From Kaistella pullorum (GTDB lineage Bacteria > Bacteroidota > Bacteroidia > Flavobacteriales > Weeksellaceae), in NCBI RefSeq assembly GCF_014837035.1, contig NZ_JACSPS010000003.1:124001-188000 (forward strand): a stretch of DNA of 64,000 nt, read 5' to 3'. Below the pieces are notes generated by a model. It made no database searches. It was not told the origin of the DNA and saw nothing but the letters and a program-made list of their open reading frames with translations. Both the position numbers and the translations under genes were made by a program. Within the stretch, counting starts at the first letter, position 1, and each line of letters opens with the position of its first letter. This document shows positions 11,983-23,619 of the stretch, in pieces.

Positions 11983-12630
11983 TTATTGCTTATACAGCCT
12001 GAGAATCTCAACAAGTTCAGGAATTGACTTTATTTTAAGCTTCTCAAACAGCCGGTTTTTGTACGTGCTGATCGTGGATGAATGGAGATTCAACTGATTG
12101 GAAATCTCTTTTAGCGGAAGACCTTCGGCCAATTTGTTGGCAATCTGCAATTCGCGGTCTGAGAGTACTTCAACAGGGGAAGTTTTTTTGGTACCACTTA
12201 CAGATTCAAAAAACATCGCTTCCTTCACGGCTTCACTGGCATAACGGCCAGTGGTGAGCATGGATGTAAGAGCAGTTTCAATTACGCTGGAAGAACTTTG
12301 CTTGCTCAGGTAACCGCCGGCACCCATTTTCAGGTAACGCATGGCGTACAGATCTTCGTCCTGAGAAGAAAAAATGAGGATTTTAAGGTTGGGCTGACGG
12401 TTTTTAATATAATCTATCGCTTCCTGAACGGTGCCATTAGGCATATTTACGTCCATAATAGCCAGATCCAGTTCTTCTTTTGAGATTACTTTGTATAAAG
12501 ATTTAAAATCTTCTACTTCAGTAATGATGGCGTCCGGTAACAGGCGTTTAACCGTCTGAATAAGACCCATACGCACAATACCATGATCATCTGCAACAAT
12601 AATCCTAACGTTTGCTTTTAGCTCCTTCAT
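11983..12630 (-). CDS. LuxR/NarL-family response regulator
   Basis: A 215-residue two-domain regulator. The receiver domain has the acidic pair in VADDHG, the phospho-acceptor D60 (LAIMDVNMP) and the GGYLSK lysine. The C-terminal LuxR-type helix-turn-helix runs from about residue 155 (LSDRELQIANKLAEG, LKEISNQLNL, STISTYKNRL). Its ATG overlaps the stop of the upstream kinase by 4 bp, so the kinase at 12627-13358 is a likely cognate partner. It could be the regulator of the pilus promoters nearby, but that is inference only. Confidence 0.93.
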   Translation of the reverse strand: MKELKANVRIIVADDHGIVRMGLIQTVKRLLPDAIITEVEDFKSLYKVISKEELDLAIMDVNMPNGTVQEAIDYIKNRQPNLKILIFSSQDEDLYAMRYLKMGAGGYLSKQSSSSVIETALTSMLTTGRYASEAVKEAMFFESVSGTKKTSPVEVLSDRELQIANKLAEGLPLKEISNQLNLHSSTISTYKNRLFEKLKIKSIPELVEILRLYKQ

Positions 12631-13358
12631 TCTTTCAATTTAGGTAAAAAAAGGGAAACATTGGTTCCTGTACTTTCAGATGAAACGATTTTGATACTTC
12701 CCTGCATCAAGGATATGAAATTTTTAACGATTTTTAAACTTAATCCTACCCCTGTTTCACCGGCGGTTCCCTGAAATACCGGATTTTCATACGTGTAGAT
12801 GTTCGATAAAAACTTTTCGTCCATGCCAGTTCCGGAATCCACTACCGAAATTACAACCTGATGATCTTCTGTAACTTCCTGTAAATAAATATCTTGGCCA
12901 GGCAAAGAGTATTTCACGGCGTTATTAACAATTTTGTCGAGAACATACTGAAGCAGTATCCGGTCTGTCTCAACAAAAGCCTTGGTATCACCTTTAAAAT
13001 AAAAGTTAAGGTTTTTTTGTTTTAAATCCGCAACGTATTTTTCCTGCAGATCGTGAAAAAGATCCACCACCGGGATTTTCTCAGGTTTAATCTTGTAATC
13101 GCCGTACTGCGTTTTCAGCCACGCGGTACTGTCCTGCACGGTTTGCAGATTTTTCTGCGCATCGCTTTTCACCTGGGGCAACAGCCTGAAAAAATCCTGT
13201 TCAGATATTGTTTTTTGCTCGATGGCTTCTATCAGCCACACAAAATTTCCAAAAAGTGATTTGGAGTCGTGCGCCAGAATGGAGATCAGTCCGTTCTTAA
13301 AATTGATTTCGTTTTGTAGGCTTTCGATCTTGGATTGTAGGTCGTTTAGGTCGTTCAT
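12627..13358 (-). CDS. cytoplasmic sensor histidine kinase
   Basis: A compact 243-residue kinase with no membrane segment. A short N-terminal coiled coil leads straight to the H box ILAHDSKSLFGNF (H30). The ATPase domain follows with KIVNNAVKYS (N box), VVDSGTGMD (G1) and GVGLSLKI (G2). It lacks a sensor domain of its own, so input probably comes from partner proteins or from the N-terminal coiled coil. It overlaps the LuxR-type response regulator by 4 bp and follows the hybrid kinase by 45 bp. Confidence 0.9.
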   Translation of the reverse strand: MNDLNDLQSKIESLQNEINFKNGLISILAHDSKSLFGNFVWLIEAIEQKTISEQDFFRLLPQVKSDAQKNLQTVQDSTAWLKTQYGDYKIKPEKIPVVDLFHDLQEKYVADLKQKNLNFYFKGDTKAFVETDRILLQYVLDKIVNNAVKYSLPGQDIYLQEVTEDHQVVISVVDSGTGMDEKFLSNIYTYENPVFQGTAGETGVGLSLKIVKNFISLMQGSIKIVSSESTGTNVSLFLPKLKE

Positions 13359-13403: not shown

Positions 13404-16151
13404 TTATGATTTGCCTTTATCCATTTCTTTGCCAAAATATTTTCTGATCATGTCTGAAAGTGTCTGTTTTAGTAAGGGCTTGGTTAGAAAATCTGACATT
13501 CCGGCCTGTAGGCACTTTTCTTTTTCACCCGGAAGACTTCCTGCGGTGAGCGCGATAATCGGGATCTCAATATCCTTTTCAATGGTTCTGATTTTCTTAG
13601 TGGCTTCAATTCCATTGAGGTTTGGCATTTGGATATCCATCAGAATAAGATCCGGACTTTCCTTCTGGTACTGCTCGATCGCTTCATTTCCATCTTTTGC
13701 ATCGATGATTAAAGCGTGGGGCAGAATATCGCTTAAATAGGTTTTGGTCAGAAGAAGATTGATCGCATTATCTTCCGCGATCAGGATTTTTAATTCATTA
13801 CTGCTTACTTCACTGGCGACATTTTTTATCTGCTCCGGTTTTTTCTTTTCAGAATTCTTTAATGTAGACAGAACCTGATACATCTGTTTCATCCGGATTG
13901 GCTTCACAAGCCTGTTTTCTATCTCCAGCTCGTCACATGCATCCTGCAGATTACCGTCGTCAGACGAACTGTACAGCACGATATACGGTGCTACATGGGA
14001 CGGATCAGGCGTAATATCCTTCATTTTTCTGATGGTTTCAATTCCATCCATAACCGGCATGTGATAATCCATAATAATCACATCGAATTCGGACTTATCC
14101 ATTATTAAAAGCAAGGCTTTCAGGCCGCTGTCGCATTCCACTACTTCGATGTTCTTCCGTTCGAGCATCCTCTTGAGGATTTTACGGTTATTATCATTAT
14201 CGTCTACAATCAGCACACGCTTGATATCGGTTAAGCTCAGGTCATACTCTTCTTCTACGGTATCGAACTCAATATCAAAGAAAAAATCGCTGCCTTTCCC
14301 CTGCTCGCTTTCTAACTGCAGAACACTGCCGGCAAGTTCTAAGATCTGATTCGAAATCGTGAGGCCAAGCCCCGTTCCGCCATATTTTTTAGTAATACTG
14401 CCGTCTTCCTGTGAAAAGGCGCTGAAGATAACCGCTTGTTTTTCTTTGTTTATTCCAACACCGGTATCGCGCACTCCGAAGCGGAATTTCTTTTTTCCTT
14501 CGGCTAAATCAGCCAGTACTTTCACATATAATACAATCTCACCTTCCTCGGTAAATTTTAGCGCATTGCTCAGAAGGTTGACGAAAACCTGCTTTAGGCG
14601 CATTTCATCGGTCCAGACATATCTCGGAATGTTTTCGTCAATATCGATGAGCATTTCGAGCCGTTTTTTAGTGTTACTGTAGGCAACAATATTGAAGGCT
14701 TCTGAAACGAGTTCTTCTATTTCTACTTTATCGAGGTTGAGCTTAAGTTTTTGCTTTTCTAATTTTGAAAAATCCAAAATATCATTGATGATGCTGTACA
14801 ACGACACGCCGGACTGGTTGATAATGTCGAGATACTGCCTCTGTGTATCGTCCAGATTGGTTTCCAGAAGGAGTTCTGTAAAGCCGATAATTCCATTTAA
14901 AGGCGTTCTGATCTCATGACTCATGTTGGCCACAAACTCAGATTTCAATTGATAGGCTTTTTCGGCTAATTCTTTTGCAGCAACAATTTCATCCTCCATT
15001 TTTTTTCTTTCGGTGATATCCACAGCATTGGCAATGACCTGTACCTTACCGTCTACATCTTCGTCTATCGCACTCATAAAGTGCCAAACCGCTTTTTCTC
15101 CGTTTTTTTTGCGTACCGTCATTTCACCAGAGGCATGGCCCGAAGTTTTGATCTGGGTCAGGTACGCTTTTACATTTTGATGTTTTTCCGGAATGACGAG
15201 ATCGTAAAGGTTGAGGTGCTTCAATTCTTCTTTTACATAACCGGAAGCCTTAATACCGGCTTCATTTACATCCAGAATATATCCTTCGTCATCATGTATA
15301 CTGATTATTCCCTGGTTTTTTTCGAAAGGATCACGGTATTTCTGTTCATTTCTTTCGAGTAATTTTTGTTTGGTGGTAAATTCTGTAACGTCCCTTCCGA
15401 TGGTGTACACCAGGCCGGACTGCGGTTCAGGAGTACACGTCCATTCTATCCATCTCACCGCACCGGATTTTATGATGTATCTGTTGGTGAAATTGACTAC
15501 AGAATTACCCTGTGCCAGTACTTCCATTGCCTGCGTGGTGCTTTGCCTGTCTTCCGGATGAACAAATTCGATAAAAACTCTGCTCATAAACTGATCGTCG
15601 CTCCATCCAAGCATTTTCGAAAAGGTAGGATTTAATTTTACGAATTTACCGTCCAAAGAAAAAACACCTAGTAAGTCATTTGAGGTTTCGAAAAGTGCAT
15701 CATAACTGTTGAGCCGCTGTTCCTGTTCTTTATAAAAAAACCATTTTGAAGCCTGCCTCACAACCTTTTCAATGATCTGCTGAACTTCGTCATCAAAGTC
15801 TTTCACCTGCTTGGCAAATAAATTCAGATGACCGATCATATGGCCATCAAGACCCGAAATGGGATAACTTCTACGGAATTTAAGATCCGAATTTTCAGGC
15901 AGATAAACAGAATCGTCATCATTCATTTCAAAATGAGGATTGACGGGATAAATTCTGGTAACAGACGCCTCGGTAGAAGCAAGAATATAAACCTGCTCTT
16001 CTATGGTAATACTCAAACTGCAATGCTCCATGTTTGTCATTTTAGCGGCCGAAAAAACCAAAAACTCAAAAACATCGGCATATTTTTTCTCGAACGTATG
16101 TAATTTATCAGTCGCGGATTGGTCCGGATTAGTAGAATTGAGGTTGTCCAT
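13404..16151 (-). CDS. hybrid sensor histidine kinase with GAF-like, two PAS and two receiver domains
   Basis: A 915-residue soluble kinase. Domains in order: a GAF-like N-terminus about 15-140; PAS at about 150-262; a second PAS at about 270-385; HisKA with FVANMSHEIRTPLNG (H412); HATPase with NLLSNALKF, DTGVGI and GGTGLGL about 515-630; receiver 1 about 644-765 (phospho-acceptor D695); receiver 2 about 787-905 (D839). It has no transmembrane helix or signal peptide. Its ATG lies 28 bp after the stop of the adhesin-like gene of the pilus cluster, on the same strand, so it may be read from the same transcript. Confidence 0.93.
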   Translation of the reverse strand: MDNLNSTNPDQSATDKLHTFEKKYADVFEFLVFSAAKMTNMEHCSLSITIEEQVYILASTEASVTRIYPVNPHFEMNDDDSVYLPENSDLKFRRSYPISGLDGHMIGHLNLFAKQVKDFDDEVQQIIEKVVRQASKWFFYKEQEQRLNSYDALFETSNDLLGVFSLDGKFVKLNPTFSKMLGWSDDQFMSRVFIEFVHPEDRQSTTQAMEVLAQGNSVVNFTNRYIIKSGAVRWIEWTCTPEPQSGLVYTIGRDVTEFTTKQKLLERNEQKYRDPFEKNQGIISIHDDEGYILDVNEAGIKASGYVKEELKHLNLYDLVIPEKHQNVKAYLTQIKTSGHASGEMTVRKKNGEKAVWHFMSAIDEDVDGKVQVIANAVDITERKKMEDEIVAAKELAEKAYQLKSEFVANMSHEIRTPLNGIIGFTELLLETNLDDTQRQYLDIINQSGVSLYSIINDILDFSKLEKQKLKLNLDKVEIEELVSEAFNIVAYSNTKKRLEMLIDIDENIPRYVWTDEMRLKQVFVNLLSNALKFTEEGEIVLYVKVLADLAEGKKKFRFGVRDTGVGINKEKQAVIFSAFSQEDGSITKKYGGTGLGLTISNQILELAGSVLQLESEQGKGSDFFFDIEFDTVEEEYDLSLTDIKRVLIVDDNDNNRKILKRMLERKNIEVVECDSGLKALLLIMDKSEFDVIIMDYHMPVMDGIETIRKMKDITPDPSHVAPYIVLYSSSDDGNLQDACDELEIENRLVKPIRMKQMYQVLSTLKNSEKKKPEQIKNVASEVSSNELKILIAEDNAINLLLTKTYLSDILPHALIIDAKDGNEAIEQYQKESPDLILMDIQMPNLNGIEATKKIRTIEKDIEIPIIALTAGSLPGEKEKCLQAGMSDFLTKPLLKQTLSDMIRKYFGKEMDKGKS

Positions 16152-16179: not shown

Positions 16180-17601
16180 TTAAATTGCTGTAAAACTGTA
16201 GTAGACATTGACAGAGTAAGTGCTGCTTTCCTTCCCGACCAAAGTTTGAGCACCTGCGGGTGGAATGGTGTATCTAACATTGAGTTCGCGGTCCAATACC
16301 GGGGTTCCGTTCGTGAGTATTTTTTGCGGGGTTTTGGATAGGGGCACGTTTGCAGAACTTCCCTCCAGCCCAATCTGTAAAATATTGGAGTTAATGGCGG
16401 TCTGAACGCCGCCTTTTTTAAAGTAATTTTCGTCTGACTTTACGTAGAGTTCGAAACTCTCATTGTTGGACAATTTGATTTGTTTTTGAATCGTCTGCGA
16501 CTGCCCATTGGCGTAATGGGCAGCGGTATTAAAGTTGAAATTTACATTTTGTCCGGAACTTGGGATGGTGATCTCAGACCGCGGGAGCACTTTCAACTGC
16601 ACAGCCGTATTTTGAAGGCTGTTTATTGAATTATCTGTACTTCTTGCACTAAGGTTCAGTTCAAAAGTATAGGTTCCGGCCTCAAAAAATTGAGTTTTAA
16701 AATCTTCTGCAGAAACATAAAGTTCCGGCATGAAGCTGTTTCTGTTTCCCGGAATCACACCGAAACTGGCAGCGGAAAAATTCTGAAAAGTGGACGATAA
16801 GGCTTTCGTTGTAAGTGCCGATCCGTTACTGCCCAGTTTAATGCTGGCTATATTTCTGGTTCCCTGGGTTCCTTTGGAGGAAATGAACTGAATATGGTTC
16901 GCTGCAGCTTTCGCCCATACATTAAAATCAACCGTATGACCGATTTCGGCATTACCCAAATTACCCAAAACCCGCGTGCCGGTAATCCGGTAGTCATTCA
17001 GCGAGGAGATTTCAATATATTTTGTAGGAGTTGTCGTTAACCACCTGACGGATGCCGGTACAACTAAAACAGTTCTGAAATTACGCGGCGTAAAATCATA
17101 GTTCTGAGTGATATTCATGGAGTAATTGCCCGCCTGAAAAGCGTTCGCAGCAAACTGAGCTGCAGGAATCTTGAACGTGAAATTAATATTTCCGCGGTTA
17201 AATCCGCCGCCGAGTACCGATGAAGGCGGCTCAAACCATCTTACCGCCCCTGTGCTAAAGGACTGAAACCCCGGTAAATAACCCAAATATCCGGTAGATG
17301 GCATTTGCCCGCCCATACTTTCCAGCTGCCAAAGAAGAACAGTAGTGGGTAAGGTCAATGAGGAAGATGACTGAACAAAATTTGCACCTGACGTGGAGGT
17401 AAATGTAGGACTTACGGGACCTAATCCAAAAAAAGCATAATCCCAGTTCGTTCTGTTGGTGTACATTACCGTTGTGGGCAATGAAGTAAATTCAGACCTG
17501 TTAAAAATATTATCCTCAGGAATTGACAGGTATACATCCTGCGCTTTCACCGTCACTGAACCTACGCAAACGGCAAAAATCCCTGATAAAAAAAGCCTCA
17601 T
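16180..17601 (-). CDS. predicted tip adhesin of a chaperone-usher-like fibre (pilin-like C-terminal domain)
   Basis: About 473 residues from ATG 17601 (a GTG at 17610 is the alternative). The signal peptide ends VTVKAQ. The N-terminal about 320 residues are Ser/Thr/Asn-rich, beta-predicted and not recognised. The last about 130 residues read like the pilin subunits upstream: VQLKVLPRSEITI, then FNFNTAAHYANG (pilins: FNYSSAADYNS), FELYVKS, VRYTIP (pilins: LDYTIP) and the final YSVNVYYSFTAI (pilins: YTQTVTYTATAL). A receptor-binding domain fused to a pilin domain is the layout of chaperone-usher tip adhesins. Last gene of the chaperone-usher operon. The function is inferred from architecture and context. 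Confidence 0.65.
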   Translation of the reverse strand: MRLFLSGIFAVCVGSVTVKAQDVYLSIPEDNIFNRSEFTSLPTTVMYTNRTNWDYAFFGLGPVSPTFTSTSGANFVQSSSSLTLPTTVLLWQLESMGGQMPSTGYLGYLPGFQSFSTGAVRWFEPPSSVLGGGFNRGNINFTFKIPAAQFAANAFQAGNYSMNITQNYDFTPRNFRTVLVVPASVRWLTTTPTKYIEISSLNDYRITGTRVLGNLGNAEIGHTVDFNVWAKAAANHIQFISSKGTQGTRNIASIKLGSNGSALTTKALSSTFQNFSAASFGVIPGNRNSFMPELYVSAEDFKTQFFEAGTYTFELNLSARSTDNSINSLQNTAVQLKVLPRSEITIPSSGQNVNFNFNTAAHYANGQSQTIQKQIKLSNNESFELYVKSDENYFKKGGVQTAINSNILQIGLEGSSANVPLSKTPQKILTNGTPVLDRELNVRYTIPPAGAQTLVGKESSTYSVNVYYSFTAI

Positions 17602-17620
17602 CGTTTTCACACTTCTAAAT

Positions 17621-20422
17621 TTAAAACTTTTTCACCTTTATGGTGGTGTTTTTCTTCTTATATTCAAAAACTAAAACTTCTGAATATCCCTCTTTCGTTA
17701 CCTGAACGGTTTGGCCTGGCTGTGTGTAGCTGTACTTGTCGTTTTCAATATAAATCGTGTATCTACCGTCTTTCAGGAAGAATTCAAACTCATTACTCTG
17801 ATTAACAACAGCAGTATAAATTTTGCCGTCTTCGCCTCTTGCGTACACCACGATACCGGTCACATCTGTTTCCAAAACATCGTAAGCCTGCTTGATTTCA
17901 ATTAATTTTCCACTCACTCTGATGTTTTTTACCATTCCTACTTTGCGGTTGATATTGCTGTTCACGGTAATTACAGGATCCATCATCAGCCGCGCGCCAG
18001 CACTTTCGCTCACTTTCAGCGTATACACGCCTTCGGGTACATTCTGGAAAACGACTTTCCCGTTTTTGTCGGTCATCGCAACGAAGCTGTCAAGTTTCAC
18101 GATTTCATTTGCAAGCACTTTCTCGCCGGTTTCAAGCTGTCCGTTTGAGTTTTTGTCTTCAAATAACTGGAAGCTCACTTTGTGATTCCCAAGCGCGGTA
18201 GCTGCTGCAAAATATTTTTTAATGCCCACCCGGAATTGATAATAGCCGCTACTGGCAGCGTATGCTGCAGTAGTTTTATAACCTGAAATATTAAAATAAC
18301 CCGTGGAAGACCAGGATGGTGAAATTTTATACTCAATATTTCCGGATATATTGCTGTTCAGGTTTTTATAAAGTTCAGAATAGGATGCTCCCGCCGATAA
18401 TGACCCCGTCAGACTGTTGTTGGGAGTCTGGAAATTGTACGAAGCAAAAAGATTGTAATTGGCAAAATTTCGGTCAACATCGTAGTAAGAATTCAGATCA
18501 AAAACATTGTTGGCATTCCATTGGGCTGTGCCGTTCAGCGAGAAAGATTTATACCGGTAACTTAGGGTAGTCCTCAAACTGTTGAACCACTCTTCCTTAT
18601 TATTTTCTTTTGAATAAGAATATTCAGCCATCAGGTTTAAGCCGTGCGCACCCAATGTTGTACCGATATTTGTTTCGAAACGGTATGAAAAAAGCTCGTG
18701 CGAGTTGTAAAAATTTGCAGTTTTCTGTCTTTCAACTTTTGGTGCAAAAAAGAAATTCCACTTATTCGCAGAAAACTGATAACCTGATGACAATGCTTCT
18801 GTACTGTTGAAATAGTAACGAAGATCCGCTGCACCCGCTTCGGCAGGCGCATTCTGAAAACTCAGGAATTCCGGAATCACTTCTGAATTCTGATACTGAA
18901 TAAATGCCCGCTGCGTTGCCGAAAACTGATAGCCAATTCTTTGATTTGAAAAAAAAGACCCACGTTTGATGCCCGCATAACTTTTGGTTGAAAATGAATT
19001 CAATGACTGGAAATGCCATTTCCCGATTTTCCCATCGTAATTTGCAGCAAGTAAAACACCGGCATTTTCGTCAAGATTTGCAAGGCCTTTTTCGTGGCTA
19101 AAGCCAACTTCTGCGCTTATGGTGTGTTTCTCATTAATGATAATTGAGGATGTCGCGTTCGCAACCTGAGTGTCTACATTAAAACGCGGATCGTGATCAT
19201 ATAAATAAGACACTTTCCCGATGAAAGATTTACCGTTCCCAAAACCATATTTTGCACCGATAAGTTTGGAACCTTCAGCCTGCTGAAAATAAGTACCGAA
19301 AAGATTAAAATTATTTTCTAACGCAAGAATTTCAAATTGATTTTTTTCGCCGAACTGTCTCGAAACTTTCGCGCCTCTTCCGAAAACCGGATAATCGTAA
19401 TCACTGCTGTTGATATTTCCAAGGCGCAAAGCTGTATTTCTTCCTTCCAGTTCAAGCCAGGTATCATAAATGTTGTAGCGCCCGTCTTCAAGATAATAAT
19501 CTGCGCCGAGATTGAAGCGTGATGTTAAATTTTCGTTTACACGAAAGGTGGAGTTTCCTCTCAGCTGCGCAAAATTAAAACCAGAACTGTTTGCGTTATA
19601 GGCAAGTTCAGCAAAATTGCTTTCCGTCGTCGATTCATAGCCACGTGCAACCTGTCTGTTGTTCGATAAAATAACCAGATGAAGCGTGTTGCTACCCACA
19701 ATTTCATTATTGAATACATCTGTGGCACTTGCGGTTATATTAAATTCGGGGAAAAGCGTATTCTGCTTTCTTACGAGAATTCTGATCTCTACGGACTGTT
19801 TTTCTAAACCGGCCAGCGTGAGGGTTTGCTGTCTGGGCATCATTTCCAAACCATCAGGAATCGACTGCAGATCAATTTTTACTGTTTTTTTATTGTAACC
19901 TTGATTTTCTACCCATAAGACAATTGAAGATTCAGGCGCGGAAGGATTAATAAAGTTCTCATAAGACGCCGTGTAAATCGCGATGTTATTGTTTTCCTCC
20001 CTTTTGACGAAAAAAGACGCACTTTCAGTTTTTGAAGCAGGTGAGCTGGTGTAAGAAACATTAAATTTAATCTCGTTAGATTTCAGTTTCATGAAATCAA
20101 GATTAGCGATCAGTTTTACAGGAAGTTTTTTGGATGCGCCTGCGCCCAGGGAAAATTCATCTTTAGAATAATAAAGTAACCCCGGATATTTCTCCTGAGG
20201 CGTGATATTCTGAATGGTAATCTCCGCAGAACCTTTGTTTTCAATTACCAGAAAATTGGTAAAAGTTGAACCTTTTTCTACCGCAACACTTTCATTTTCA
20301 AAATATACCGCGATATCCTTGCTCTCCTGCGCATAGGAAAACGAAAGTTGCAGAAAAACCACTGCCAAAAGCAGTAATGTTCTTCGCAGGATGGATATCG
20401 ATATGCTATTTTGTGCTGCCAA
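17621..20422 (-). CDS. predicted outer-membrane usher-like beta-barrel protein
   Basis: 933 residues. The signal peptide is about 1-32. Ig-like segments at about 33-260 follow, then a long stretch at about 265-735 of alternating aromatic/polar strands typical of an outer-membrane beta-barrel. The C-terminus has an SdrD-B/Cna-B-like domain with FEDKNSNGQLETGE from residue 754 and a second carboxypeptidase-regulatory-like domain about 830-933. Chaperone-usher ushers have a barrel with periplasmic domains at both ends. Here the long N-terminal Ig region and the absence of an obvious plug motif are atypical. No ATG exists near the start; TTG 20422, 8 bp after the chaperone stop, is the likely start. 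An outer-membrane anchor without usher activity is the main alternative. Confidence 0.6.
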   Translation of the reverse strand: MAAQNSISISILRRTLLLLAVVFLQLSFSYAQESKDIAVYFENESVAVEKGSTFTNFLVIENKGSAEITIQNITPQEKYPGLLYYSKDEFSLGAGASKKLPVKLIANLDFMKLKSNEIKFNVSYTSSPASKTESASFFVKREENNNIAIYTASYENFINPSAPESSIVLWVENQGYNKKTVKIDLQSIPDGLEMMPRQQTLTLAGLEKQSVEIRILVRKQNTLFPEFNITASATDVFNNEIVGSNTLHLVILSNNRQVARGYESTTESNFAELAYNANSSGFNFAQLRGNSTFRVNENLTSRFNLGADYYLEDGRYNIYDTWLELEGRNTALRLGNINSSDYDYPVFGRGAKVSRQFGEKNQFEILALENNFNLFGTYFQQAEGSKLIGAKYGFGNGKSFIGKVSYLYDHDPRFNVDTQVANATSSIIINEKHTISAEVGFSHEKGLANLDENAGVLLAANYDGKIGKWHFQSLNSFSTKSYAGIKRGSFFSNQRIGYQFSATQRAFIQYQNSEVIPEFLSFQNAPAEAGAADLRYYFNSTEALSSGYQFSANKWNFFFAPKVERQKTANFYNSHELFSYRFETNIGTTLGAHGLNLMAEYSYSKENNKEEWFNSLRTTLSYRYKSFSLNGTAQWNANNVFDLNSYYDVDRNFANYNLFASYNFQTPNNSLTGSLSAGASYSELYKNLNSNISGNIEYKISPSWSSTGYFNISGYKTTAAYAASSGYYQFRVGIKKYFAAATALGNHKVSFQLFEDKNSNGQLETGEKVLANEIVKLDSFVAMTDKNGKVVFQNVPEGVYTLKVSESAGARLMMDPVITVNSNINRKVGMVKNIRVSGKLIEIKQAYDVLETDVTGIVVYARGEDGKIYTAVVNQSNEFEFFLKDGRYTIYIENDKYSYTQPGQTVQVTKEGYSEVLVFEYKKKNTTIKVKKF

Positions 20423-20430
20423 ACTGAATA

Positions 20431-21231
20431 TTAAAATTTAAAGTTCTTTTCGCCTACGCGCAAATCATTGGAGCCGGCCATTTTTACGATAGCCACGCCG
20501 AGGAAGTTTCCTGAAATATTTTCAGGCAATGTAAACTGAACGACCTGATTGGTCTGCGGAAGCATGGAAACCGAAACTGCCGGCAGCTTAATCTCTTTTC
20601 CGCTGTCTGTATTCGTCAGTTCGAATTCTACGGTAGCATCGTTGATGGTATTGCCGTCATTATGGATGCTTATTGCCACTTTTCGCTCTGGTACTCCAGG
20701 ATTAGAAACTTCGGCAATGTTGGTGATATCAAGACTTTTCACATTGTTTCCCGGCGGTGTGTAGAAAACGTGAAGACCCACCTCGAATAAAGTAATGATA
20801 CCAATCCCGTTCTGAACGTTTGCCTTATCTGCCTGCTGCGGAAGTTGCGTAAAAAACAACATGCTGTTCGTAACGTCCGATTTTGATGCGTTAGTCGGAA
20901 TTTGCATTGTAACTACAATCTCTTTTGTGCTTTTGGCCGGAACTGTTACCGTATTTTCCAGTGTAGAAAGCGACGCAGCGTTTGAGATTTTAGAAGTTCC
21001 GGCATCAGAATAAATTTTGTTTCCGTCGTCTTCCCTTACCCAGTCTTTATAATTAAGATTAAAAACATAATCTTTATCAGAACTGTTGTGAAGTGTTACA
21101 GTCTGCGTCACTTTCTCGCCCGGATTACCTGTGAAAAACAAGCGTGTAGGCGACATAGAAATACTTTGTGCCAGCAATGAGGAAGCTCCTGTGAGGATGA
21201 GAAAAATGAAAATGTGAAAAAACTTGCGCAT
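20431..21231 (-). CDS. predicted periplasmic pilus-assembly chaperone (PapD-like, two Ig domains)
   Basis: 266 residues with a signal peptide ending LLAQ. The mature N-terminus SMSPTRLFFTGNPGE matches the first strand of PapD-type chaperones (the SLDRTRVIF type), placing R30 at the conserved anchoring arginine. The segment HVFYTPPG at 154-161 corresponds to the KLFYRP strand, with H154 where PapD has its anchoring lysine. The length and two-domain layout fit the family. It heads the operon chaperone-usher-adhesin and sits behind one copy of the repeated promoter module, with a leader of about 140 nt. Confidence 0.75.
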   Translation of the reverse strand: MRKFFHIFIFLILTGASSLLAQSISMSPTRLFFTGNPGEKVTQTVTLHNSSDKDYVFNLNYKDWVREDDGNKIYSDAGTSKISNAASLSTLENTVTVPAKSTKEIVVTMQIPTNASKSDVTNSMLFFTQLPQQADKANVQNGIGIITLFEVGLHVFYTPPGNNVKSLDITNIAEVSNPGVPERKVAISIHNDGNTINDATVEFELTNTDSGKEIKLPAVSVSMLPQTNQVVQFTLPENISGNFLGVAIVKMAGSNDLRVGEKNFKF

Positions 21232-21378
21232 AATGTGATTTTAAAAAAAAATAAAAGATTTCCGAAACTACTGAAAACGAAACTAACGAACCTTTTTAAA
21301 CTGATAAAAATTCTGTAAAATGTGTTTCAGAGTTCGCTTTAATTGGCTTTTTCTGTTTTGCCGTCTCTTTTAACACTG

Positions 21379-21447
21379 CAAATTTACAGCGGACGCTGCA
21401 TTTTGTGTGTAGTTCTTAAACGAAGTCTTTGTAGTAAAATAACTACA
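21379..21447 (-). promoter_or_regulatory. pilus promoter module, copy 1 (chaperone-usher-adhesin operon)
   Basis: On the minus strand: ACTACA-N6-TGTAGT palindrome (21430-21447), a further ACTACA half-site (21408-21413) one 22-bp period downstream, then 21 bp to the -7 box TAAATTTG (21379-21386). No TTTG -33 box is present; the half-site occupies its place. Identical spacings occur in the copies at 22113-22181 and 22875-22943. Reads toward the chaperone gene. Likely an activator-dependent promoter. Confidence 0.75.
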
Positions 21448-21464
21448 CGTCCCGTTTAAAAGAA

Positions 21465-21494
21465 AACCCTCAACATTTTCAGATGCTGAGGGTT
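21465..21494 (-). terminator. terminator of pilin gene 1
   Basis: The stem AACCCTCA/TGAGGGTT extends by CAT/ATG past one mismatch, with loop TTTCAG. It lies 23 bp after the stop of the pilin at 21518 and is followed on the minus strand by TTTTCTTTT. Confidence 0.8.
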
Positions 21495-21517
21495 GGGTAT
21501 ATTAAGATGTGTTTTTA

Positions 21518-22066
21518 TTAAAGAGCAGTAGCAGTGTATGTTACTGTTTGAGTATAAGTTCCGGCTGGTTTACCAAGGATTTTTGAAGAAGATGATTCAC
21601 TTGCAGGAATTGTATAATCAAGGTTCAATGTAAGTGCGCTACCAAGCGGAGCATTTGTAACTAAATTCTGATCTTCCGCAGATAAAACAACGGGGCTTTT
21701 TGTACCGCCCATAGTTCCTGCATCTGCTGCAGCCTTGATCGTAAGTACATTCACAGGAATAAGATTCGTTCCGTTCGCAAAATTCAAACCACCGGCTTTT
21801 ACCTTTACGTTAAAGTTTTTTGTGGATGTAACTTTCAGCGCGCTGAGCTGTGCTACAGACTTAGTTGAATTGTAATCTGCAGCAGAAGAATAGTTGAAAC
21901 CGATTGTTCCACCACCAGCAATACTTCCTGCATCAATTGAGATTACGTCGTTAAGCGTAATGTTAACAGTTGTGGTAGCTGTGGTTTTTTCCTGAGCCTG
22001 AGCTGTAAAAGTTCCTAGTACAATTGCTCCGAAAGTTAATGCTGCGATTGTCAGTGAATTTTTCAT
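21518..22066 (-). CDS. pilin-like secreted subunit 1
   Basis: 182 residues. The signal peptide is MKNSL...TAQA with cleavage after A24. The mature N-terminus begins QEKTTATTTVNITLNDVISI, an alternating hydrophobic strand of the kind used for donor-strand exchange. This is followed by a beta-rich domain with FNYSSAADYN, FNVKVKAGG and LDYTIP and the terminal strand TYTQTVTYTATAL. The layout resembles CS1/CFA-I-type (alpha family) major pilins as I remember them; no alignment was computed. No cysteines in the mature part. It is nearly identical to subunit 2, with the same signal peptide, and has its own promoter module and terminator. Confidence 0.7.
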   Translation of the reverse strand: MKNSLTIAALTFGAIVLGTFTAQAQEKTTATTTVNITLNDVISIDAGSIAGGGTIGFNYSSAADYNSTKSVAQLSALKVTSTKNFNVKVKAGGLNFANGTNLIPVNVLTIKAAADAGTMGGTKSPVVLSAEDQNLVTNAPLGSALTLNLDYTIPASESSSSKILGKPAGTYTQTVTYTATAL

Positions 22067-22112
22067 AAAGATTTTTATTATTTATTAATTATTTTGTTGT
22101 CTTTTAACACTG

Positions 22113-22181
22113 CAAATTTACCACGGCACCAAAGGTTTCTCTGTAGTGCAAAATGGAAGTTGATGTAGTAAAAAAACTACA
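22113..22181 (-). promoter_or_regulatory. pilus promoter module, copy 2 (pilin 1)
   Basis: Palindrome ACTACA-N6-TGTAGT at 22164-22181, half-site ACTACA at 22142-22147, 21 bp, then the -7 box TAAATTTG at 22113-22120, all on the minus strand. The expected transcript starts about 40 nt before the pilin 1 ATG (22066). Confidence 0.78.
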
Positions 22182-22214
22182 GTATTCACAGCGTACTTAT
22201 TTAGAAAATAAAAA

Positions 22215-22240
22215 CCCTCAGCATTCAATAATGCTGAGGG
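22215..22240 (-). terminator. terminator of pilin gene 2
   Basis: Perfect 11-bp stem CCCTCAGCATT / AATGCTGAGGG with loop CAAT, 28 bp after the stop of pilin 2. On the minus strand it is followed by TTTTTATTTT. Confidence 0.85.
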
Positions 22241-22268
22241 CGGGGTATATATATAAAAGATGTGTTTC

Positions 22269-22817
22269 TTAAAGAGCAGTAGCAGTGTATGTTACTGTCT
22301 GTGTATACGTTCCCGCTGGCTTACCCAGGATATCAGGTGAAGAAGATTTTGCTGCCGGGATGGTGTAATCAAGGTTTAATACCAAAGCACTTCCCAGTGG
22401 AGCATTTGTAACTAAATTTTGATCTTCCGCAGATAAAATAACGGTATTTTTCGTACCACCCATAGTTCCTGAAGCTGCCGCAGCTTTGATCGTCAGTACA
22501 TTAACAGGAATAAGATTCGTACCGTTCACGAAATTCAAACCACCGGCTTTTACTTTTACGTTAAAGTTTTTTGTGGATGTTACTTTCAGCGCGCTTGCCT
22601 GCGCTACAGTCTGTGCAGAATTATAATCTGCGGCAGAAGCATAGTTGAAACCGATTGTTCCGCCACCTGCAGTACTTCCTGTATCGATTGAGATTACGTC
22701 ATTAAGGGTGATGTTTACAGTTGTAGTAGCTGTGTTTTTTTCCTGCGCCTGAGCTGTGAAAGTTCCTAGTACAATTGCTCCGAAAGTTAATGCTGCGATT
22801 GTCAGTGAATTTTTCAT
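22269..22817 (-). CDS. pilin-like secreted subunit 2
   Basis: 182 residues, with the same signal peptide and domain layout as subunit 1 and only scattered substitutions (for example NYASAADYNSAQTV for NYSSAADYNSTKSV). The start-to-start distance to subunit 1 is 751 bp, and promoter module, gene and terminator are all repeated, so this is a tandem duplication of a complete transcription unit. It probably provides a second version of the major fibre subunit. Confidence 0.7.
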   Translation of the reverse strand: MKNSLTIAALTFGAIVLGTFTAQAQEKNTATTTVNITLNDVISIDTGSTAGGGTIGFNYASAADYNSAQTVAQASALKVTSTKNFNVKVKAGGLNFVNGTNLIPVNVLTIKAAAASGTMGGTKNTVILSAEDQNLVTNAPLGSALVLNLDYTIPAAKSSSPDILGKPAGTYTQTVTYTATAL

Positions 22818-22874
22818 AATGATTATTATTTGTATTATTTATTTATTTATTTATTTTGTTTCCTTTTAACACTG

Positions 22875-22943
22875 CAAATTTACAGCGGCCCCAAGAGCTT
22901 ACTTGTAGTGCAAAATGGAACTTGATGTAGTAAAAAAACTACA
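22875..22943 (-). promoter_or_regulatory. pilus promoter module, copy 3 (pilin 2)
   Basis: Palindrome ACTACA-N6-TGTAGT at 22926-22943, half-site at 22904-22909 (22-bp phase), 21 bp, then the -7 box TAAATTTG at 22875-22882 on the minus strand. The predicted leader before the ATG at 22817 is about 50 nt. Confidence 0.78.
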
Positions 22944-22962
22944 CGGACCGCTGAATAAAAAA

Positions 22963-22990
22963 AACCCTCAGCATCACTGTGCTGAGGGTT
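22963..22990 (-). terminator. terminator of pilin gene 3
   Basis: Perfect 11-bp stem AACCCTCAGCA / TGCTGAGGGTT with loop TCACTG, 22 bp after the stop of pilin 3. On the minus strand it is followed by seven T. Confidence 0.87.
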
Positions 22991-23011
22991 TAATTTTTTT
23001 TCGGCGTTATA

Positions 23012-23554
23012 CTATAATGCAGTCGCGGTATAAGTTACTTTCTGGATGTATGTACCTTTGGGTTTTCCCAATAGTATCTGTGAAGCTTTTTCTGCGGAGA
23101 TTGAGTAGTTGATATTTAAAGACTGCATTGATCCTAATGAAGCATTACTTACCAAAACCTGATCGATGGCGGATAGCGTAACTTCCTTCAGCGTTCCGGA
23201 AAGGTTGCCGCTGGGCGCTGCTTCTATCTTTAAAACATCTACAGGAATAAGGTTTGCGCCGCTGACGAAATTAGCGCCGTCGGATTTTACTTTAACGTCG
23301 AAATTTTTCGACGAAATGATTACCAAACTGTTTGGAACGGTCACATTTTTCGCAGAACTGTAATCACCGGGATTCGAATAACTAAAATCTACAGCTCCGC
23401 CTGATGCCACACTGCCTTCATCAATTGACAGAACGTCGGCCAAAACAATGTTTACAGTTGTGGTAGCCTGCTCAACACTTTGTGCCTGAACATGATGGAC
23501 TCCAAAGAAGGCAGTCCCCAGAAACAGCGCAGCAATAACGGTTTGTCTATTCAT
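23012..23554 (-). CDS. pilin-like secreted subunit 3 (diverged)
   Basis: About 180 residues from ATG 23554, which puts a signal peptide at the N-terminus (MNRQTVIAALFLGTAFFG...VQAQ); an upstream start at 23572 only adds MQKNLI. The mature protein has the same pattern as subunits 1 and 2: ATTTVNIVLADVLSIDEGS, FSYSNPGDYSS, FDVKVKSDG, LNINYSI and the final TYIQKVTYTATAL. It is clearly paralogous but more diverged. It has a standard promoter, not the TGTAGT module, so it may be a separately controlled minor or initiating subunit. Confidence 0.68.
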   Translation of the reverse strand: MNRQTVIAALFLGTAFFGVHHVQAQSVEQATTTVNIVLADVLSIDEGSVASGGAVDFSYSNPGDYSSAKNVTVPNSLVIISSKNFDVKVKSDGANFVSGANLIPVDVLKIEAAPSGNLSGTLKEVTLSAIDQVLVSNASLGSMQSLNINYSISAEKASQILLGKPKGTYIQKVTYTATAL

Positions 23555-23619
23555 AATCAGATTTTTTTGCAAGCTGTGCCGTTTTCTTTTTATATAATAA
23601 TATTTTGAAGCTTGTAACT

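Follow-up and report, generated by a model that had tools for sequence, protein, structure and literature searches.

The six-gene cassette at positions 16180-23554 of a 64,000-nucleotide stretch of the Kaistella pullorum genome (contig NZ_JACSPS010000003.1; the whole stretch is hereafter called the window) very probably represents a strongly diverged chaperone-usher system of Bacteroidota. A sequence-only reading of this DNA had proposed such a system from the types of parts encoded, and the proposal is supported here by profile comparisons with controls and by predicted models of a subunit and of the barrel protein. The evidence comprises homology of the chaperone and of the barrel and C-terminal domains of the large outer-membrane protein to chaperone-usher parts, a pilin-like fold of the subunits, homology between the subunits and the end of a two-domain protein, conservation of the whole cassette in other genomes, and promoter modules that occur nowhere else in the genome.

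All six open reading frames (ORFs) are present on the minus strand, and the part types assigned to them earlier are borne out. Their order of transcription is three subunits, chaperone, barrel and tip. They are not chance ORFs, since orthologues lie in the same order in other genomes, and each of the six proteins begins with a signal-peptide-like stretch, as read by eye. For subunit 1, orthologues back the ATG at 23554 as the start codon in place of the TTG at 23572 chosen by the ORF program. The cassette-linked unit extends beyond the six genes to include three regulatory genes 3' of the tip gene. The features, in window coordinates, are as follows.

23012-23554, minus strand: pilin-like subunit 1, about 180 aa (ORF, alignment with the other subunits, orthologues)
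22962-22991, minus strand: terminator-like stem-loop 3' of subunit 1
22926-22943, minus strand: palindrome TGTAGT-N6-ACTACA before subunit 2, 5' of the TAnnTTTG promoter box
22269-22817, minus strand: pilin-like subunit 2, 182 aa (ORF, orthologues, subunit alignment)
22214-22241, minus strand: terminator-like stem-loop 3' of subunit 2
22164-22181, minus strand: palindrome TGTAGT-N6-ACTACA before subunit 3 (repeated module)
21518-22066, minus strand: pilin-like subunit 3, 182 aa, sharing 90% identity with subunit 2 (ORF, alignment, model)
21465-21494, minus strand: terminator-like stem-loop 3' of subunit 3
21430-21447, minus strand: palindrome TGTAGT-N6-ACTACA before the chaperone-usher-tip genes (repeated module)
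20431-21231, minus strand: periplasmic chaperone, 266 aa, two Ig-like domains (Pfam, profile comparison)
17621-20422, minus strand: usher-like outer-membrane protein, 933 aa (profile comparison, model, structure search)
16180-17610, minus strand: two-domain tip protein, 476 aa (HMM and hhalign to subunits)
13404-16151, minus strand: hybrid histidine kinase, PAS-HisKA-HATPase-two receivers (several orthologous loci have it 3' of the tip gene)
12627-13358, minus strand: sensor histidine kinase, HATPase_c (syntenic)
11983-12630, minus strand: NarL/LuxR-type response regulator (syntenic; proposed to act on the palindromes)

The orthologue search covered 80 relatives together with a scan of 84,980 species genomes, and orthologous loci were found in Chryseobacterium, Paenimyroides, Arenibacter and one MAG labelled Myroides. 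Protein identities are about 68-93% in further genomes of the family, Chryseobacterium and Paenimyroides, and 41-67% in Arenibacter, and on contigs of sufficient length the chaperone, barrel and tip genes come after two to five subunit genes. A second, divergent arrangement, subtype B, occurs in the same genus and elsewhere (L018-L024, L070, L072, L100) and comprises a subunit, a chaperone, a protein of about 330 aa and a barrel; both subtypes are present in two genomes (G003, G032). Outside the orthologous loci, the chaperone profile has matches in 43 of 296 sampled Bacteroidota genomes, a figure that counts chaperone-family genes and not complete systems, since in three loci (L080, L095, L099) such genes have neither a pilin-like gene before them nor a barrel gene after them. 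The neighbourhood of these three genes is itself conserved, with a gene of about 480-500 aa just 5' of the chaperone-family gene. Most of the loci inspected encode between one and four small secreted proteins 5' of the chaperone and a protein of 860-1490 aa 3' of it, and the chaperone and large genes often overlap by a few bases or lie at most 30 bases apart. Linkage was gauged against a control set from the same loci, made up of 173 other ORFs with lengths of 220-360 aa: an ORF of at least 800 aa lies directly downstream of 36 of the 51 chaperone ORFs and of 12 in the control set. In another three loci (L081, L087, L088), a gene of 344-379 aa starting with MGR(A/P)MLII is located 5' of the subunit genes.

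The 266-aa protein, which had been taken for a PapD-like chaperone with two Ig domains, is homologous to PapD-type chaperones as judged by profile comparison, and the match spans both domains. Against 18 PapD-type chaperones, hhalign gives 97.1% for the family as a whole and 95.9% for the close family, percentages that here and below come from single pairwise comparisons, not database-wide probabilities, and are therefore read against controls; shuffled and reversed profiles score at most 19. Arg30 of the A1 strand aligns with Arg8 of FimC. The G1 donor strand of FimC is matched by GIGIITLFEVGLHVFY, a strand of alternating hydrophobic residues, in which the Lys of FimC is represented by His154 in the window's subtype and by Lys in subtype B (GVKIYHR vs RIKLYYR). 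The gene is present as a single copy in the whole genome (2.56 Mb), and no relative of the chaperone was found in viral contigs or plasmids. The search of Pfam pilin, PapD and usher families that had been suggested as a check gave a divided answer: none of the six proteins in the window reaches a curated threshold of these families, and an NCBIfam search with them returned no meaningful match, but distant chaperone-family members reach PapD_N at 3e-4 and 9e-4, just under the cut-off, and distant cassette members approach Usher (3e-4) and CooC_C (1.3e-5), both below cut-off. Distant cassette members also have a DUF4402 match above cut-off.

The Pfam cut-offs that the chaperone does pass are those of fn3_5 and WxLIP_PGBD (PF06030; 32.0 vs 27.3 bits). 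By sequence, its sole credible relative among solved chains is EfmWxLIP1 (9i1y), with an E value of 0.0014 over both domains, and hhalign aligns the chaperone family at 98.7% over 258 columns (close family 96.8%) with a WxLIP family of seven members, drawn from lactic acid bacteria and enterococci, whereas controls made by reversal or shuffling do not score above 20. These matches speak for a Gram-negative counterpart of the WxL locus, in which a WxLIP-like holder would anchor small beta proteins and the barrel would only export or anchor them, with no fibre being formed. Such an arrangement is nevertheless very unlikely, as the 266-aa protein lacks a C-terminal transmembrane helix, the subunits have no WxL motif at their C termini and reach just 6% against WxL proteins, their structural matches are pilins, and the conserved barrel is usher-like, whereas WxL loci have no barrel. 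The chaperone of a diverged chaperone-usher system remains the preferred identity of the 266-aa protein.

Classical PapD-type chaperones and WxLIP show a similarity of 0.3%, so that the Bacteroidota chaperones match two families which do not match each other. The WxLIP hairpin strand has been predicted to insert, in parallel orientation, into a gap in WxL and thereby complete its beta-sandwich, in a 2023 paper that mentions neither chaperones nor fimbriae (PMC10599100). As modelled, this insertion would be donor-strand complementation in all but name. It may be proposed, with confidence falling somewhat short of even, that the Bacteroidota chaperones link PapD-type chaperones and WxLIP, two systems so far regarded as unrelated, that WxL loci constitute an usherless strand-complementation chaperone system, and that donor-strand chaperoning predates or crosses the divide between Gram-negative and Gram-positive bacteria. 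If true, pilus assembly in Gram-negative bacteria and the WxL surface complexes of Gram-positive ones would belong to a single family. The WxLIP encoded by one plasmid record (CP069367.1, 101773-102459) shares 73.5% identity with its Enterococcus faecium counterpart; the record, which carries the label Klebsiella pneumoniae, is possibly mislabelled or contaminated.

The 933-aa protein consists of two N-terminal Ig-like domains (about 35-255), a barrel (about 260-745) and two C-terminal beta domains (about 746-933). The earlier description of it as a beta-barrel protein gains support both from profiles, which match ushers, and from a predicted structure whose barrel part best matches FimD. When 48 Bacteroidota barrel proteins were compared with 15 proteobacterial ushers, hhalign gave 97.5% with a score of 114.9, and the close family alone gave 89.2% with a score of 64.1. 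Among controls, E. coli TonB-dependent receptors, LptD and BamA reach at most 1.0%, while 20 column shuffles score no more than 21 and the reversed profile no more than 37. The signal divides into 90.5% for the barrel and 78.5% for the C-terminal domains, and both pieces are homologous to the corresponding parts of FimD/PapC. The cut-off of Usher PF00577 is reached neither by the window's protein nor in any of 198 Bacteroidota genomes (0/198), and a blind search of these genomes yielded a single match below cut-off (5e-5, in G251), which proved to be the large gene directly 3' of the chaperone homologue found earlier. The Pfam matches of the window's protein itself are weak ones to Ig and CarboxypepD_reg/SdrD_B families. 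The AlphaFold model is weak overall (pLDDT 53.2, from a shallow alignment of 15 rows), with a fairly confident N-terminal Ig-like pair and confident strands in parts of 433-635; among solved structures compared by VIA-align, the barrel of this weak model is closest to FimD (residues 326-646, Z 13.1, rmsd 6.0, 262 residues), which Foldseek also finds. A functional reading of the first Foldseek list for this protein was discarded, the list being dominated by generic Ig proteins that match the N-terminal domains. Amphipathicity peaks number 25-30, compared with 19-26 in FimD (barrel plus plug). Profile similarity to the plug is 1.2%, and the plug stretch is the worst modelled part, with strand-like alternation.

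No canonical usher N-terminal domain was detected in the 933-aa protein, whose profile similarity to the FimD N-domain is at most 2.4%; two Ig-like domains stand in its place. The model folds residues 36-251 into a pair of beta-sandwich domains nearest to WxLIP (Z 10.3) and the YadV chaperone (Z 9.1). This second Ig pair of the cassette (module 35-255) thus resembles WxLIP and a pilus chaperone in predicted fold, whereas sequence profiles detect no relation to chaperones (29%) or WxLIP (2.4%), and no common descent is claimed on account of these scores. The pair may dock the chaperone-subunit complex. Because the canonical usher N-terminal domain was not found, the cassette is likened to the chaperone-usher pathway in its working and placed outside any named clade.

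The subunits had been described as having N-terminal alternating strands, and subunit 1 carries the donor-strand-like stretch ATTTVNIVLADVLSI in this position. The mature form of subunit 3 (157 residues, window 21521-21991) was modelled from 36 sequences with a pLDDT of 90.7, and the model shows an Ig fold whose first 16 residues, containing the alternating ATTTVNITLNDV, are unpaired. The predicted structure agrees with the expected incomplete Ig fold and free N-terminal donor strand. In sequence, no similarity to E. coli pilins was detected by the subunit profile (6%), no credible relative was found among solved structures, and the profiles of distant subunits retrieved FimA alone, with a non-significant E value of 0.2. 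In structure, Foldseek ranks TLP-1a first for the subunit 3 model, followed by CfaB and by subunits of the type 1 pilus, CS20 and Csu, so that CfaB leads the chaperone-usher rows (1.6e-3). VIA-align likewise places TLP-1a (9ikj, Z 10.0) and TLP-1b (9ikk, Z 9.9) at the top over 146 residues, and CsuA/B from the CsuC-CsuA/B complex leads its chaperone-usher rows with Z 8.1. Most of the VIA-align list consists of chaperone-usher pilins with Z-scores of 6-8, and, as each of these is middling by the scale of the tool, it is the consistency of the list that argues for a pilin-like subunit. On the further suggestion of a CS1/CFA-I (alpha) type, the two chaperone-usher rankings differ: CfaB comes first in Foldseek, but the archaic CsuA/B comes first in VIA-align.

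The same structural lists bear on another explanation, namely a fibre of donor-strand type that would polymerise on the cell surface, as TasA-type or archaeal strand-exchange filaments do, and for which the barrel would be a passive export pore. It draws on the leading positions of TLP-1a and TLP-1b and on the presence among the VIA-align matches of two filament entries (9h8b and 9bab) other than chaperone-usher pilins. This explanation appears highly improbable, since surface-polymerising systems need neither a chaperone nor a barrel, whereas here both match chaperone-usher parts against controls and their genes adjoin one another through the phylum. TLP-1a and TLP-1b, reportedly filaments from environmental water samples of the CryoSeek study, are the nearest solved structures to the subunit, and a system of this kind could be the source of TLP-1.

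Tip adhesins such as CsuE, CfaE and FimH combine an N-terminal region of their own with a C-terminal pilin domain. The 476-aa protein, previously described as a two-domain secreted protein, has the same layout, with a C-terminal domain (334-476) that shows homology to the subunits (HMM 2.3e-21, 99.1% in hhalign) and an N-terminal part of about 330 aa that has no known relatives. Being the sole cassette protein with this combination, it would be positioned at the fibre tip, where it could serve as an adhesin, and the fibre might function in adhesion or biofilm formation. That the same chaperone-usher chemistry yields a short fibrillum or a capsule-like layer at the surface, instead of a long pilus, is unlikely but deserves some weight: F1-like chaperone-usher systems make capsule-like layers, nothing in the sequence sets the length of the fibre, and orthologous loci usually have two to five subunit genes that resemble one another. 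Against this reading, there is a dedicated two-domain tip protein, and subunit 1 is diverged while the other copies are nearly identical, features characteristic of pili that have both major and minor subunits.

In the proposed chaperone-usher mechanism, Sec would export the subunits to the periplasm, where each would have an incomplete Ig fold until it is completed by the G1 strand lent by the 266-aa chaperone. The chaperone would then hand the subunit over to the 933-aa barrel in the outer membrane, whose two Ig-like domains probably receive the complex instead of the usual N-terminal domain. At the barrel, the N-terminal extension of the next subunit would displace the chaperone strand, and the fibre would grow outward with the two-domain 476-aa protein at its tip.

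Each subunit gene is followed by a stem-loop of 12-13 bp with a T-rich tail, and these near-identical terminators suggest separate transcription units for the subunits and for the chaperone-usher-tip genes. Upstream of subunit 2, of subunit 3 and of the chaperone lies one copy of a module in which the palindrome TGTAGT-N6-ACTACA is followed by a TAnnTTTG box, a promoter element of the Bacteroidota type. The module occurs three times in the 2.56 Mb genome, always in the cassette, and the backward pattern is absent (0 copies); the palindrome, expected 0.17 times by chance in the window, recurs in many orthologous loci. As a scan for sigma-70 promoters gave no excess over chance, the promoter reading is based on this repeated module. 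A sensor kinase with a response regulator, or all three regulatory genes, follow the tip gene in many orthologous loci, and the hybrid kinase, sensor kinase and NarL/LuxR-type regulator occupy this position in several distant loci as well as in the window. Such synteny makes dedicated two-component control of the cassette likely, and the linked system probably acts on the palindrome promoters.

If this reading is right, a pilus type has been overlooked in a large group of environmental and host-associated bacteria, and an usher without the standard chaperone-docking domain would make it testable which usher parts are essential. A search of the open-licence literature found no description of a chaperone-usher system in Bacteroidota, although most subscription papers lie outside it and a prior description is possible. 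Surface fibres of Bacteroidota include the type V (FimA/Mfa1) lipoprotein pili of Bacteroidales, to which the cassette would be similar in making such a fibre; this type was rejected, as the cassette has no Pfam match to the FimA or Mfa families, no lipobox cysteine in any subunit sequence, and a chaperone and usher instead. Assignment of the proteins as T9SS cargo was also rejected, the domains of such cargo being absent. With WxLIP (DUF916-DUF3324), the chaperone shares both Ig domains over their full length, but WxLIP ends in a membrane helix at its C terminus, has partners that carry the WxL motif, and lacks an outer-membrane usher. TLP-1a and TLP-1b resemble the subunit model in structure, whereas the TLP subunit has 236 residues and no sequence match to the cassette subunit.

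Among chaperone-usher systems proper, type 1 pili (FimD/FimC/FimA) share with the cassette the barrel matched by the model and the Arg and G1 strand of the chaperone, and differ at the position of His154; profiles detected neither their usher N-terminal domain nor their plug in the cassette's barrel protein. The gene order of Csu is CsuA/B-A-B-C-D-E, and this archaic (sigma) system is similar to the cassette in its order of subunits, chaperone, usher and tip, in its small subunits with an N-terminal donor strand, in its two-domain tip protein and in CsuA/B as the best chaperone-usher match in VIA-align. The cassette differs from Csu in having no PF00577 or PapD_N match at cut-off and in its two Ig-like domains in place of the usher N-terminal domain. 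Archaic systems have been recorded in Proteobacteria, Cyanobacteria and Deinococcus-Thermus, with Bacteroidota not among them (PMC4654587), and classical and alternative systems are confined to beta- and gamma-proteobacteria (PMC9452303). The alpha (CS1/ECP) systems, from which the cassette is set apart by the same lack of Pfam matches at cut-off, resemble it in the ECP order of pilin, chaperone, usher and tip, in the leading chaperone-usher position of CfaB in Foldseek, and in the match of one distant usher to CooC_C, the C-terminal domain of the CS1 usher. The gene order fits Csu and ECP alike, and the hits point toward both alpha and sigma.
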